Source: Rossellomorea aquimaris TF-12
GTDB taxonomy: Bacteria; Bacillota; Bacilli; Bacillales; Bacillaceae_B
DNA length: 64,000 nucleotides
Assembly (NCBI RefSeq): GCF_001648555.1
Contig: NZ_LQXM01000029.1
Span: 310,001-374,000, forward strand
Reading direction: 5' to 3'
Each line of letters begins with the position of its first letter. Within the stretch, counting starts at the first letter, position 1. Of the stretch, positions 11,084 through 55,316 are shown one piece after another. A program made the position numbers and the translations under genes. The notes under the pieces were generated by a model that ran no database searches, was not told the origin of the DNA, and was given only the letters and a program-made list of their open reading frames with translations.

Positions 11084-11209
11084 ATAAACACCTCATTAAT
11101 CTCCCAATAGTAGCTAAAATTTCATTTTAACACATTCTACCAATTTAACATGTTGATATTTTCAATAATATTACTTAAAGGATGTAAATTGAGGATATTT
11201 TGGAAAATA

Positions 11210-11293
11210 GATTGATTACTTCAGATATCGAACCGTATTGCAAGAAAATTGGATTGATTTTTCGTTAAAATGCATCGAATTGATAAAGAGTGA
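11210..11293. repeat. Degenerate 21-bp-period array (GATTGATT core), weak copy
   Basis: Cores at 11210 (GATTGATTA), 11231 (AACCGTATT, degenerate), 11252 (GATTGATTT) and 11273 (CATCGAATT) are exactly 21 bp apart. Same core class as the stronger arrays at 27952 and 47852. Unlike the others it is not directly behind a stop codon: the nearest leftward gene ends at 11490 and has its own terminator between. Confidence 0.5.
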
Positions 11294-15334: not shown

Positions 15335-15353
15335 TATAATAATTAAATCATTA

Positions 15354-15456
15354 CTTATCAAGAGAGGTAGAGGGAATGGCCCAATGAAACCTCAGCAGCA
15401 GATTCTATTCATGGAACACTGTGCTAATTCCACAAGCCGAGTGCTTGAGAGATAAG
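15354..15456 (+). promoter_or_regulatory. SAM-I (S-box) riboswitch aptamer
   Basis: P1 is closed by CTTATC (15354-15359) with GATAAG (15451-15456). Between them lie the conserved S-box elements in order: AAGAGAGGTAGAGGGA, TGGCCCAATGAAACC, CAGCAGCAGA, then GGTGCTAATTCC-like GTGCTAATTCCACAA, and GCTTGAGAGATAAG. This is the SAM-I consensus. SAM binding would stabilise P1 and release the downstream terminator (15474-15511). The controlled gene is only a small FbpA-like ORF, an unusual S-box target. Confidence 0.93.
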
Positions 15457-15473
15457 ATGAAGTTTTGAACGTT

Positions 15474-27450: not shown

Positions 27451-27895
27451 CTAGTATGTAGTTTTGAGTTTAAAAGTCTTTTTAAAATAGGTAGTGGATT
27501 CTTCATATCCTATTGCTTTATAAAAGTCATGAGCTCTTCTCGTTGCTAAAGCAACCAGATTAGCCCCACGTTCTTGTGATTAACTTTCTATTATTGCCAT
27601 CAATCCTTTACCGATTCCTTGCCCTCTATACCCATCCAATACAAATAATTCTTCTACCCAAGTAACATCTCCATTGGCTTAGAATGCAGGATGGTGAAAG
27701 GCTAAAATGTATCCTACAAGTTTTTGCCCTTTTTCAGCAATAAAAATATCAACAATTGAATCAAGGAGTACTTTGTTCATTGCTCGCTGAAAATCTTCCT
27801 TATTAGGCATAAAACTAGTAGTTAGCTAAACATGCAACTAGAGTGAATAAATCATTCATTTTACGAAATTCAGTCATTCTATAATGAATATTCAT
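27451..27895 (-). pseudogene. Decayed GNAT acetyltransferase
   Basis: ATG at 27895 starts MNIHYRMTEFRKMNDLFTLV; after a frame change it reads MPNKEDFQRAMNKVLLDSIV, VDIFIAEKGQKLVGYILAFH, then an in-frame TAA (27679-27681), VTWVEELFVLDGYRGQGIGK (a perfect acetyl-CoA loop), a second TAA (27580-27582), and RRAHDFYKAIGYEEST to a TAG at 27451. One frameshift plus two stops that are 33 codons apart in the same frame, so sequencing error is unlikely to explain all. Non-functional. Confidence 0.92.
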
Positions 27896-27951
27896 GTTAC
27901 CTTCTTCTTCAGGATTAGTCACTTTTGAACTAACGAGCTAAAATAAGGAGT

Positions 27952-28056
27952 AATCGATCCGACTTACTACAAAATCAAGCCAGATTCTTCATAAATCGAG
28001 CCGAATTCATTAAAAATTGATCCAAAAGAAGAATAAATCAATCCGTTTTACAATAT
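27952..28056. repeat. 21-bp-period array, AATCRAKCC core, five units
   Basis: Cores begin at 27952, 27973, 27994, 28015 and 28036, exactly 21 bp apart: AATCGATCC, AATCAAGCC, AATCGAGCC, AATTGATCC, AATCAATCC. The 12-bp filler between cores is unrelated from unit to unit. The array ends 13-25 bp beyond the stop of the leftward HAD gene (28069). Read leftward in that gene's frame the units give heptads YSSFGSI, FNEFGSI, YEESGLI. Confidence 0.88.
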
Positions 28057-28068
28057 TAACCAAATTAA

Positions 28069-28773
28069 TTATCTTAGCAAAATCTCTCGTATCTCCCCTA
28101 TTTCAGACACAACGCCTAACGGAATATGAGAAGTTGGTTGAGAAACACCTTTCCGGTTCACCCATATGGCCTCCATTCCAACATCTATCGGTCCTACTAC
28201 ATCATGAATCCAAGAATCACCTATAAAGATTGTCTCACATGGTTTTTTATTAAAATGTTCTAAGGCAACGTGATAGATTTCCGGGTCTGGTTTTCTGTAA
28301 CCTAATTCTTCTGCTTGAAAAATAATTTCACTGGGAAAAATGTTCGATAATCCCATACGTGAAATTTTTAGTCTTGCATCATACAAAGCATTGGTGATGA
28401 TGCCTACTTGATAGTGATTACTAACATCATGTAATAATCGTGTAATAGCTGGATTTTCTCTTATAAAAGACATACCTGTTTTTAAAAATAGGTCATCTAT
28501 CTCATCAATAACATCTACACCTGGAAACAATTGAAAATTAGCAAAAGCATGCTTCCATCTCTCTCTTCTGAAATTTTTTGGAGTAATATCCCTCCTTTTA
28601 AACTGTTCTATTAAACAAGTAGGAACGTGTAATTTCTTCTCGAGAAATAATGGTGCATCCAGGATTTTCGTAAGAGGATGAGATTTCAAAGTATGTTTGA
28701 GCCCTTCTTCAAACCAAGGTGAGCAAAGTAAAGTATCGTCTAAATCAAATAATAATAAGCTGTGATTACTCAT
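28069..28773 (-). CDS. HAD family hydrolase (FMN/5'-nucleotidase-like)
   Basis: 234 aa. LLLFDLDDTLLCSPWFEEGL (7-26) is motif I; VGIITNALYD motif II; ELGYRKPDPEIY supplies the Lys; IFIGDSWIHDVVG motif IV. C1 cap helical. Phosphatase of small phosphorylated metabolites. Its ATG lies inside the last codons of the upstream Nudix gene (8-bp overlap), so the two are translationally coupled. No hairpin terminator follows; instead the 21-bp-period array at 27952-28056 begins 13 bp after the stop. Confidence 0.88.
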   Translation of the reverse strand: MSNHSLLLFDLDDTLLCSPWFEEGLKHTLKSHPLTKILDAPLFLEKKLHVPTCLIEQFKRRDITPKNFRRERWKHAFANFQLFPGVDVIDEIDDLFLKTGMSFIRENPAITRLLHDVSNHYQVGIITNALYDARLKISRMGLSNIFPSEIIFQAEELGYRKPDPEIYHVALEHFNKKPCETIFIGDSWIHDVVGPIDVGMEAIWVNRKGVSQPTSHIPLGVVSEIGEIREILLR

Positions 28774-31104: not shown

Positions 31105-31127
31105 GTATCTGAGTAGGAATATACTAT

Positions 31128-31190
31128 AATCGATCCAACAATAGAAAGAATCAATTCATCTTCCAAAAAGACCAATTCTACCTCACTTCT
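31128..31190. repeat. 21-bp-period array, AATCGATCC core, three units
   Basis: AATCGATCC at 31128, AATCAATTC at 31149 and GACCAATTC at 31170, exactly 21 bp apart, between a plus-strand terminator and the stop of the leftward microprotein gene (31183). Same core as the array at 27952. Confidence 0.65.
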
Positions 31191-39946: not shown

Positions 39947-40103
39947 GTTTATCTCACTCCTTAATAAAAAGCGGCTATTTTAACCGAGAATTCAACCGAA
40001 AAGCAATATTTTCTTTAAATTAAATTCTCTATCAGTTATTTTTGGCTAAAATGATTAGAAAAGTATACATATGTAAGAATTAAAACTGGTAGAGAATGAT
40101 ATA

Positions 40104-40269
40104 TTATCAACTTTTGAGATTTTATTTTTAACTTTTTAGAATTTATTTTCAACTTTCGTGAGTTTATTATCAACTTTAACAATCCTGACGAATTATTTTT
40201 TAACAAAGGTGAGTTTTTATCATTCAAAAGACTTTATTATCAACTTTTATACTATATTATCAACCCAAA
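40104..40269. repeat. 21-bp-period array, TTATCAACTTT core, eight units
   Basis: Cores (TTATCAACTTT and variants TTTTTAACTTT, TTTTCAACTTT) start at 40104, 40125, 40146 and 40167 (21 bp apart), then after a 30-bp gap at 40197, 40217, 40237 and 40257 (20 bp apart). It ends about 10 bp before the stop of the TauE/SafE gene (40277). Read leftward the first block gives heptads of the form K-L-x-I-x-S-x. Fills the 39947-40276 gap. Confidence 0.87.
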
Positions 40270-42199: not shown

Positions 42200-42292
42200 A
42201 TTGGGCCAGAACCTAACTGTATTGGGCCACTATTCACCATAATTGGGCCACCTTCAGAAGCTATTGGGCCAGAAATAGACACTATTAAGCAA
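42200..42292. repeat. 21-bp-period array, ATTGGGCCA core, five units
   Basis: ATTGGGCCA begins at 42200, 42221, 42242 and 42263, identical and exactly 21 bp apart; a decayed fifth unit ATTAAGCAA is at 42284. The 12-bp fillers are unrelated. It lies 30 bp beyond the stop of the 2'-5' RNA ligase-like gene (42322). In that gene's frame, past its TAG, the complement reads VSISGPI, ASEGGPI, MVNSGPI, QLGSGPI and stays open for 61 codons. Explains the 41998-42321 gap. Confidence 0.92.
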
Positions 42293-42321: not shown

Positions 42322-42879
42322 CTAGAGAACTTCCATCAATAATTTCTTTGAAAAGACAACTGGCGCACCTACACATTTCCCATGGTCATATTGCAATTCA
42401 ATTAGGGCTATCTCCTTAATGATTCCAGATAGTATTTTAGAATGGCTAGAACAGTAGTTAAATGCCTCTAATAGTTTCAACTGAGTTAATCGATTAGCAA
42501 TGGTACAATGGGGAATCCATTTTCCAGGTGAATATAGTGAATCTTCCTTACCATCTAAATTGAAGAATTGGTGATGCTGAAGATGGAGATTCATTAGTTC
42601 TTCCGTCACTACTGGTGAGAGAAATAAAGTTCCTGAATTGATAAATGTTCCCAGTAATTGGAAGGAAAGTGGAATAGCTGGCTTATTTTCATAGTACGTA
42701 TCCATTAGTTCCATAAACCGTTCTTTATTTAAATCTTCATAGCTTGCAAGCGTTAGATGAGGCTGTCGATTTTCGACTTCATAGGCATAGGAAGTAATCT
42801 TTTCATCATGTAGTCCTTCCCATAAGTTCTTAATGTTTTGTTCTGTCTTCTCATCGAAAATAGCGATTACACCAAACAT
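42322..42879 (-). CDS. 2'-5' RNA ligase / LigT-like phosphoesterase family protein
   Basis: 185 aa. Two H-x-T/S motifs: RQPHLTLASYEDL (about 39-51) and WIPHCTIANRLTQL (about 127-140), the signature of the 2H phosphoesterase superfamily, here H-L-T and H-C-T. Such proteins hydrolyse or ligate 2',3'-cyclic phosphates or 2'-5' bonds; substrate unknown. Directly follows the DinB gene (start adjacent to its stop). No hairpin terminator; a 21-bp-period array begins 30 bp after the stop. Confidence 0.82.
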   Translation of the reverse strand: MFGVIAIFDEKTEQNIKNLWEGLHDEKITSYAYEVENRQPHLTLASYEDLNKERFMELMDTYYENKPAIPLSFQLLGTFINSGTLFLSPVVTEELMNLHLQHHQFFNLDGKEDSLYSPGKWIPHCTIANRLTQLKLLEAFNYCSSHSKILSGIIKEIALIELQYDHGKCVGAPVVFSKKLLMEVL

Positions 42880-47361: not shown

Positions 47362-47784
47362 ATGAAAAAAATATCTTACTTTTTTATTACTATATTTATT
47401 GGTTTAGGCATTATCAGTTGGAAAGTTGGACAGGTTGATAAACTCAATAGAATTGATGTGCAAGAGATTCATGAGGAGGGAAGTGTTAATGATGTAGGAA
47501 TGGTGATAGAAGAGGCAGATTTGAGAAGCATAAGTTTTTTACTAGAACAAGTAAACTGGGAAAATGATTCCCTCGCAGTTAATGAAAGCACTCCTCATTT
47601 CTCGGCCACCTTCTTCTATCAAAAAGACAAAAACATGCCTGAAAGATTAATAGAATACAGCATTTGGTTTGACCTTCAAAATGGACAAACAATCCTAAAG
47701 AAAACAGACGGCGTCGAAACATATGGTGTACTTGAAAAAGAACATGCAGTTAAATTACATAACTATTTTAATGTTTGGGATTAA
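47362..47784 (+). CDS. Membrane-anchored hypothetical protein
   Basis: 140 aa; GGGGATAT upstream of ATG. N-terminal hydrophobic segment KISYFFITIFIGLGIISWKV (3-22) without a lipobox, so an anchor or uncleaved signal; the rest is outside. Mature part has STPHFSATFFYQKDKN and IEYSIWFDLQNGQTILKKTD, beta-rich. No family recognised. Followed directly by a long perfect hairpin. Confidence 0.6.
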   Translation: MKKISYFFITIFIGLGIISWKVGQVDKLNRIDVQEIHEEGSVNDVGMVIEEADLRSISFLLEQVNWENDSLAVNESTPHFSATFFYQKDKNMPERLIEYSIWFDLQNGQTILKKTDGVETYGVLEKEHAVKLHNYFNVWD

Positions 47785-47819
47785 GAGGTGCGTCCCTCAG
47801 TGGGGGGACGCACCTCTTA
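47782..47819. terminator. Perfect 15-bp hairpin overlapping the stop codon, without U-tract
   Basis: TAAGAGGTGCGTCCC/GGGACGCACCTCTTA with an 8-nt loop; the left arm contains the TAA stop of the upstream gene. GC-rich and strong but followed by TATGGTG, not by Ts, so it may act as an RNA-stability element rather than a terminator. Confidence 0.75.
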
Positions 47820-47851
47820 TGGTGTTCATTTATGTAATTAAATGGAAAACA

Positions 47852-47986
47852 GATCGATTCCTTTGTGAATTGGATTGATTTCGACATTTTCCGGATTGTT
47901 TCTGCTAGAAAGCGGATCGATTTTATACTATTTCCGATCGATTCCACTCTAAAATGGATTTATTCTCCTAAAAAAAGTCGAATTCC
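47852..47986. repeat. 21-bp-period array, GATCGATT core, six to seven units
   Basis: Cores at 47852, 47873, 47894, 47915, 47936 and 47957, exactly 21 bp apart: GATCGATT, GATTGATT, GATTGTTT, GATCGATT, GATCGATT, GATTTATT; a degraded seventh near 47977. Fillers unrelated. Lies 34 bp beyond the stop of the leftward MFS gene (48020). In the frame of that gene the complement reads HFRVESI, GNSIKSI, RFLAETI, RKMSKSI, QFTKESI. Confidence 0.92.
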
Positions 47987-55223: not shown

Positions 55224-55316
55224 TTTTCAACTTTAAAGATTTTATTATCAACTTTTGAAATAAAGTGAAACATATCATTAACTAAAGAAGCTTCCTTAGG
55301 GCGGTTATTATCAACT
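55224..55316. repeat. 21-bp-period array, TTATCAACTTT core
   Basis: TTTTCAACTTT at 55224, TTATCAACTTT at 55245, and TTATCAACT at 55308, i.e. offsets 21 and 63 (3 x 21), with two decayed units in phase between. Same core as the array at 40104. It ends 27 bp beyond the stop of the leftward GNAT gene (55344). Confidence 0.78.

Follow-up and report, generated by a model that had tools for sequence, protein, structure and literature searches.

The window analysed here is a stretch of 64,000 nucleotides from Rossellomorea aquimaris TF-12 (contig NZ_LQXM01000029.1, positions 310,001 to 374,000). On its minus strand, past the end of a HAD-family hydrolase gene, lies an array of five 21-bp units with the core YGG-MTYG-ATT (Table 1). 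The cores (AATCGATCC, AATCAAGCC, AATCGAGCC, AATTGATCC, and AATCAATCC) start at positions 27952, 27973, 27994, 28015, and 28036, and align with those of other arrays when taken on the minus strand (GGATTGATT and similar words). An earlier note on this DNA had described AATCRAKCC cores set 21 bp apart at 27952-28056; the spacing is exact, and the consensus describes four of the five cores. The 12 bp between the cores, which the same note had called unrelated, are A/T-biased at the bases adjacent to the core, so the filler is not wholly free. No terminator-like site was found between 27800 and 28300, and hence none ahead of the array; promoter-like sites at this array and at the one at 47851 show no excess over shuffled sequence. 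The array has no match in Rfam; the sole Rfam match in the window is a SAM riboswitch elsewhere, at 15352-15458 on the plus strand (RF00162, score above gathering). Behind the array, at 27500-27900 on the minus strand, an acetyltransferase-like reading frame appears by eye to be broken, and no ORF of at least 60 aa is listed there.

Further arrays occur in the window, with cores of the same and of two other classes. That at 47852 is a better example of the class than the array at 27952, and the hairpin seen by eye ahead of it overlaps terminator-like hairpins that are also listed by the terminator scan. At 11210, there are two good units with one unit skipped. The second class, TGGCCCAAT, is represented at 42200 by four perfect copies of ATTGGGCCA, about 50 bp past the stop of a minus-strand gene (42322-42879), and this TGG-CCCA-AT class recurs elsewhere in the TF-12 genome. 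Recurrence had been proposed for six sites besides 27952: it is borne out at 47852, 42200, and 40104, whereas 31128, 11210, and 55224 are weak on their own. At least four repeats within 800 nt of noncoding DNA are found at 27952 (five units) and 47851 (six), with 31128 and 55224 being too short. The six window genes that adjoin arrays comprise HAD, ArsP_1, 2'-5' RNA ligase, TauE, and GNAT family members and one gene without a family. The profile behind the E-values was built from 34 arrays, among them those at 27952 and 47851.

Table 1. Repeat arrays of the window and the features next to them.
Feature	Position	Strand	Basis or remark
Degenerate array, class of 27952	11193..11280	+	Profile E 6.7e-6 (match 11193-11278); antisense to both adjoining genes
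Degenerate sixth unit	about 27931-27940	-	Beyond the five-unit array 27952..28045
Five 21-bp units	27952..28045	-	Profile E 5.0e-16 (array itself among the profile's 34 arrays)
Boundary (leader) unit AATTTGGTTAATATTGTAAAA	28046..28066	-	Form shared with relatives' arrays
HAD-family hydrolase gene	28069..28773	-	Stop about 24 bp ahead of the first 27952 core
Two-unit remnant or degenerate array, class of 27952	31119..31174	-	Profile E 0.038
Third-class array AAAGTTGATAA, four units at 21 bp	40102..40177	-	Two further copies near 40234-40265
TGG-CCCA-AT class array	42200..42271	-	Four perfect 9-bp cores at 21 bp; poor fifth to 42292
Hairpin, weak T tail	47783..47818	+	By eye; between the stop of 47362-47784 (+) and the 47850 array
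Boundary (leader) unit of the second array	47829..47849	+	Aligned sequence
Six 21-bp units, class of 27952, opposite strand	47850..47964	+	Profile E 5.7e-13 (array itself in the profile)
Two third-class units (weak)	55224..55255	-	Adjacent units only

The arrays are real. Across the TF-12 genome, the pattern GATYGATT-N13-GATYGATT with up to two mismatches has 95 matches against 7 for its reversed control, and an exact variant of the paired-core pattern has 21 against none. A profile search of the same genome gave 57 matches at E ≤ 1 and 41 at E ≤ 0.01, several of which are pieces of one array. The assembly has a contamination estimate of 9.56%, and its contig pairs C1/C15 and C2/C14 carry identical pattern matches; part of it may be duplicated or mixed.

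Within the window, a strict test for three recurring 9-mers at periods from 9 to 60 returned period 21 alone (two clusters, at 40118 and 42199) and near zero in 20 simulations. The 27952 array fails this test and is detected by a looser four-unit score. By that score, the 264 kb round the window hold nine arrays at period 21, against three over all other periods from 13 to 45, and one order-3 Markov sequence holds none. Two of the nine lie within coding sequence. Of the two readings of 21 bp that had been offered, two helical turns and seven codons, the former is the natural one; arrays in coding sequence are a minority kind, and coding heptads are ruled out at 27952 by the lack of any ORF of at least 60 aa spanning 27952-28016.

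In a wider sample of 1.458 Mb from 13 genomes (given below by their handles, G000 being TF-12), 43 of 52 noncoding arrays have a period of 20 or 21 and the other nine are scattered over eight periods, though many of the sampled stretches were centred on a prior match (G017, G025, G035, G003, G018, part of G012, and the first stretches of G134, G184, and G173). The coding label comes from a simple ORF caller and not from a gene finder, and coding-labelled arrays are excluded from these counts. Stretches picked independently of matches comprise 264 kb surrounding the window plus 100 kb from each of G027, G030, and G041; in that order, they hold 8, 1, 0, and 0 noncoding arrays at 20-21 bp and 2, 0, 0, and 0 at other periods, which indicates that array abundance varies by species; 100 kb of G003 holds none at 20-21 bp either.

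The anatomy of the arrays was derived from 62 examples in 60 stretches of eight genomes, out of 14 genomes with matches; the main-class pattern is present in these 14 of 36 genomes of the genus, and its control gave 0 in every genome. An element opens with a flank rich in G and poor in C, continues with a boundary unit (TTTGG-N8-GTAAAA) and the 21-bp units, and closes with a flank rich in C and poor in G. A typical unit is CGG-NNNN-ATT followed by 11 looser bases. Over 309 units the main-class consensus is CGGC[TC]GGATT[not G]TY-NNNN-AWWW, with G at position 11 in 0% (rounded), and the step is 21 bp in 303 of the 309, under a chaining rule that prefers 21 and admits 20-22 and 41-43. Arrays contain four (6 arrays), five (14), six (28), seven (9), eight (4), or fourteen (1) units, so that 51 of the 62 have the usual five to seven. 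In the main class, A/T blocks at unit positions 8-12 and 18-21 stand about one helical turn apart with G/C-richer stretches between them. Classified by filler ends, adjacent filler pairs are A-rich/T-rich in 116 cases, A-rich/A-rich in 40, and T-rich/T-rich in one. Around the core, the only palindrome signal visible by eye is a weak pair of AAAT...ATTT arms.

The boundary unit is a degenerate unit ahead of the first, in which positions 5-7 read TGG in 43 of the 62 arrays and positions 16-17 read GT in 53; its TAAAA is biased because it formed part of the search pattern, whereas TGG and GT lie outside that pattern. When 34 arrays, including ten of the TF-12 genome, are aligned without gaps, one leader form stands ahead of both core types. 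The composition of the flanks switches across the element. In the TF-12 genome, C is scarce in the 100 bp ahead of arrays, with a GC skew of about +0.3, as is G in the 40 bp that follow them (-0.35 to -0.46). Over 23 array-bearing intergenic regions of the sampled genomes, the skew difference is +0.57 against -0.08 at random intergenic points, and in the 62-array set the skew is higher ahead than behind at 23 of 24 loci. It is strongest (+0.51 and -0.34) where no co-directional gene precedes the array (six loci), and therefore belongs to the element and not to the adjoining gene.

Arrays mostly stand behind genes, usually past an intrinsic terminator. The gene in front is co-directional for 52 of the 62 arrays, or for 18 of 24 loci once orthologues are merged (two arrays of stretch L220 being counted as one locus), and is absent as a co-directional neighbor at the other six. 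At 17 of the 24 independent loci, at least one copy has a co-directional gene whose stop lies no more than 140 bp ahead. For 47 arrays the distance from stop to array is 97 ± 15 bp and that from array to next gene 255 ± 126 bp. A terminator stands between stop and array in 39 of the 47 and a co-directional terminator within 250 bp past the array in one of the 47, at a setting slightly stricter than that of the locus and control counts and with a finder that overlooks some hairpins visible by eye. Among the 18 loci counted as having such a stop in some copy, most copies carry a detected terminator at 14 and one copy or more does at 17; among control genes the figure is 25 of 64 (p 0.0065 against 14 of 18). 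In tandem contexts, the array is oriented along the gene in front at 15 loci and against it at 5 (p 0.04). With the merged counts down to 18 of 24 and 15 versus 5, orientation carries little weight. Of 47 intergenic regions between divergent genes, one carries an array, compared with 22 of 190 other intergenic regions (p 0.055), which hints that arrays are depleted there. The TF-12 genome itself is mixed: several of its arrays are antisense to both adjoining genes, and that at 27952 lacks a terminator ahead. Ten genes in front of arrays encode an FtsH-type protease, lumazine synthase, an EPSP/MurA-type enzyme, a MerR regulator, a HAD hydrolase, an ArsP permease, a TauE/SafE exporter, a 2'-5' RNA ligase, a GNAT protein, and a protein of no family, and these ten have no functional theme in common.

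Conservation between species, which had been named as a check on the arrays, is evident from aligned orthologous arrays, in which the core is kept. In 69 orthologue pairs (flank match of at least 300 bases; pairs interdependent and picked via the core pattern), 14% of core positions differ, compared with 24% in the leader, 30% at filler edges, 40% in the filler middle, 37% in the spacer, and 40% in the trailer. With front-flank divergence binned at 6.5, 12.1, and 18.2%, core divergence is 9.7, 12.6, and 10.9%, whereas that of unit positions 14-17 is 23, 45, and 55%. The same contrast appears at one site that was retrieved with a 1.1-kb query of array and both flanks instead of the core pattern, where 236 aligned unit pairs differ at 14% of core positions and 51.5% of positions 14-17 (five matches out of ten in the core suffice for the unit finder, and leader units are included in a few rows from G029 and G032). 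Ten species carry length-variable arrays at this site; G020, G005, G024, G012, G018, and G035 lack one, and a single unit is left in G022. Unit number is unequal in 40 of the 69 pairs, internal gaps of 21 or 42 bp are frequent, and 42-bp duplications are seen in G014. Thus word and step are conserved, the filler is free to diverge, and unit number varies; the arrays look as though they are kept by selection. Sixteen of the 24 loci are common to at least two genomes. Given that arrays are missing at one site in several species and rare in some genomes, their function is dispensable.

The note's picture of several different cores over the genome was sound but incomplete, as the cores of many lineages have a common GG-NNNN-ATT frame. 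Three such words at 21-bp steps occur in 12 of 16 chosen genomes (control matches: one in G000, 15 in G105, two in G194), while the exact triple is found in none of G012, G035, G158, and G130; scans of G012 and G035 gave different words, mostly with a 20-bp step. Within the frame, the middle letters differ by lineage. They are ACAG at all three places in G173, mainly CCCG in G184, G208, and G194, CGGG (once CGGA) in G206, CGGG, CGAG, and CATG in G164, mainly TTGA in G105, mainly AAAG in G142, CTGG/CCGG with CTCT and CTGA in G134, mostly CTTA/CTCA in G133, and of several kinds in G140. The TF-12 genome has three kinds of middle: MTYG, CAAG, and CCCA with CTCA/CGCA/CACA. Most of these genomes were chosen with the main-class profile, so the frame is partly a selection effect, the middle letters less so. 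That profile matches 82 of 199 genomes at E ≤ 0.01, many by one weak match.

Classes outside the frame include TTTCGCYG..., TTGCGTC, TTGTGCC, and TGGACAGTA. The step is tied to the class, being 21 bp in the main class and 20 bp for TTTCGCYG (G012, G017, G018) and GGATTRATT (G017, G018, G035). In Sporolactobacillus vineae, three exact CGGCYGGATT units stand at seven of the 31 loci listed; of these seven, four open with a leader of the form CCATAAAATGG (once CCAAAAAATGG) and one with ACAATAATTGTTAAG, and a terminator hairpin is visible by eye ahead of the array at five. An apparent likeness of the word CGGCTGGAT to the 3' end of 16S rRNA is probably due to chance, since the words differ in other lineages.

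The earlier note knew of no named element of this form; a published description does exist. Noncoding tandem repeats of 20-21 nt have been reported in Bacillus as families specific to a species, with several in one genome and a short signal retained by every repeat; their function was given as unknown, and nucleoid proteins or small RNAs were suggested as an explanation (Subirana and Messeguer, 2021; PMC8161180). The present arrays are members of this kind: repeat length, noncoding place, multiple families, kept signal, and the match to two helical turns all agree. They are species-specific in part, with one class common to 14 of the 36 genus genomes. Their anatomy appears to be new, in that the boundary unit, the site behind terminators, the flank skew, the contrast between core and filler, and the lineage words in a common frame seem to go beyond the earlier account. 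As far as the available text of PMC8161180 extends, the boundary unit, flank skew, GG-NNNN-ATT frame, and core-versus-filler divergence are not described there, and its main text does not contain the words terminator, orientation, or intergenic. Searches of open-access papers showed no description of arrays behind terminators. The same authors reportedly published an earlier paper on Bacillus repeats in J Bacteriol in 2020.

Other repeat systems offer partial likenesses. CRISPR arrays likewise combine a kept repeat, variable filler, and a leader-like start, but the kept part here is a degenerate word of 9-10 bp present at many sites, and filler is inherited and drifting instead of acquired. 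In place of near-identical repeats longer than 20 nt with acquired spacers, the arrays have a 10-bp core with variants. A CRISPR-like memory is ruled out, as fillers align between species and drift. It was correct, then, that the arrays are neither simple tandem repeats nor CRISPR and that their constant property is the step. REP/BIME elements of enterobacteria are also extragenic repeats, which lie at the 3' sides of genes and are species-specific. They appear to differ in their palindromic units, the present arrays being direct repeats with helical spacing. BIME-2 is bound by gyrase (PMC6379681; PMC3733652). The TAACTGA direct repeats of Beggiatoaceae form many intergenic sets of short direct repeats with a different word, according to the text available for them (PMC4679880).

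The arrays are plausibly, with a confidence just short of even, DNA-level sites at which a putative oligomeric DNA-binding protein, tuned to each lineage, would act at transcription-unit ends; perhaps they serve as boundaries. Each would be a row of about six helically phased sites for a sequence-specific oligomer that would start at the boundary unit and line up along one face of the DNA. Rows of sites for such a protein agree with the helical step, with the conserved word, and with a start unit followed by a limited run of units. The way the word shifts genome-wide from lineage to lineage agrees with co-evolution with a single factor, whose specificity would have shifted in each lineage so that arrays in the same genome share the middle letters of their lineage. 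Their position past genes points to a role where transcription units end; a bound array might mark that end by blocking read-through or antisense RNA polymerase or by setting a domain boundary. For a genome with several array classes, either more than one binder or a single, loosely specific one would be required. More tentatively, the arrays may form a system over many Bacillales families, with a GG....ATT frame whose middle changes genome-wide by lineage, and with a fast-evolving putative binder that marks transcription-unit ends; a genome may even have several such oligomers, which would each use a particular step of 20 or 21 bp. The anatomy turns the published but unexplained Bacillus repeats into a matter for direct tests, of a binder and of read-through, antisense transcription, and topology. 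If a single evolving factor is involved, a genome-organising system would have been overlooked, since the usual model, B. subtilis, has very few tandem repeats (PMC8161180).

The length of an element also brings to mind wrapping by DNA gyrase or an abundant nucleoid protein, at places where positive supercoils collect behind transcription units. Six units and a boundary unit cover about 126-147 bp with A/T blocks phased at roughly one helical turn, two to each main-class unit, an arrangement that may resemble the 130-bp E. coli gyrase motif with its phased G/C content; gyrase occurs downstream of transcribed units (PMC6379681), and the arrays stand behind gene ends. However, wrapping should not require a kept 10-bp word, yet the core changes little within orthologues and varies by lineage, and the attraction of E. 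coli gyrase behind genes is reported, in the available text of that study, not to be hard-wired (PMC6379681). This explanation is fairly unlikely. Another possibility is that the arrays spread as mobile or selfish elements, or arise as mutational by-products, among safe sites past terminators, with slippage by 21 or 42 bp and no host function. The unequal unit numbers, the 21- or 42-bp gaps, the duplications in G014, and the site at which an array is present, cleanly absent, or reduced to one unit are all consistent with such a history. No transposase or target duplication was noticed in passing beside arrays. Slippage alone would preserve the filler too, however, whereas filler divergence approaches saturation with little change in the core, and the sharing of two thirds of the loci (16/24) between genomes argues in the same direction, making a functionless origin rather improbable.

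An RNA element, in which the arrays would be protein or small-RNA sites in read-through or 3' transcripts, draws on the lean of array orientation toward the gene in front at tandem loci and on the precedent of transcribed 52-nt repeats in B. coagulans (PMC8625621). It is quite improbable: the Rfam search was negative at the array, arrays mostly lie past a terminator with a further one within 250 bp in only one of 47 cases, 6 of 24 loci are antisense to the gene in front, and flexible RNA is not expected to hold a strict helical spacing. Folding of 15 TF-12 arrays with their flanks against 60 shuffles each gave a mean z of about -0.6 (11 of 15 negative), with one fold below -3 and one other below -3 on the reverse strand, and hence no consistent excess. 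The geometry of the units is identical to that of LytTR sites, which are pairs of 9-bp direct repeats 12 bp apart (PMC6193735), and the reverse complement of ACCACTTAT has AAGTGG in common with some units of G000 and G133. It is nevertheless highly improbable that the arrays are operators for a LytTR-type regulator, as such operators consist of two repeats at promoters, upstream of the -35 element, with another word, while the arrays are rows of about six GG-NNNN-ATT cores mostly behind gene ends. LytTR matches number 1-4 per genome in array-rich and array-poor genomes alike, with one in the TF-12 genome; over these 16 genomes, gene counts do not track arrays, which speaks against LytTR as the binder.

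Some repeats met in the scans depart from the usual form. In G017, a 25-bp-period array (TTTGCCTGTTRAATT; L083, 17650-17900) lies past a strong terminator hairpin in a similar layout with a different period, and in G018 a 36-bp-period repeat, noncoding by the ORF test, is found at a contig end (L287, 1-364). In G035, head-to-tail cassettes of about 350 bp (L085, 1360-2310) and about 190 bp (L084, 2350-3100) each contain one 20-bp-period array. Finally, a GGTTGAATT array in G105 (C61:131269-131739) extends to more than 20 units at exactly 21 bp.
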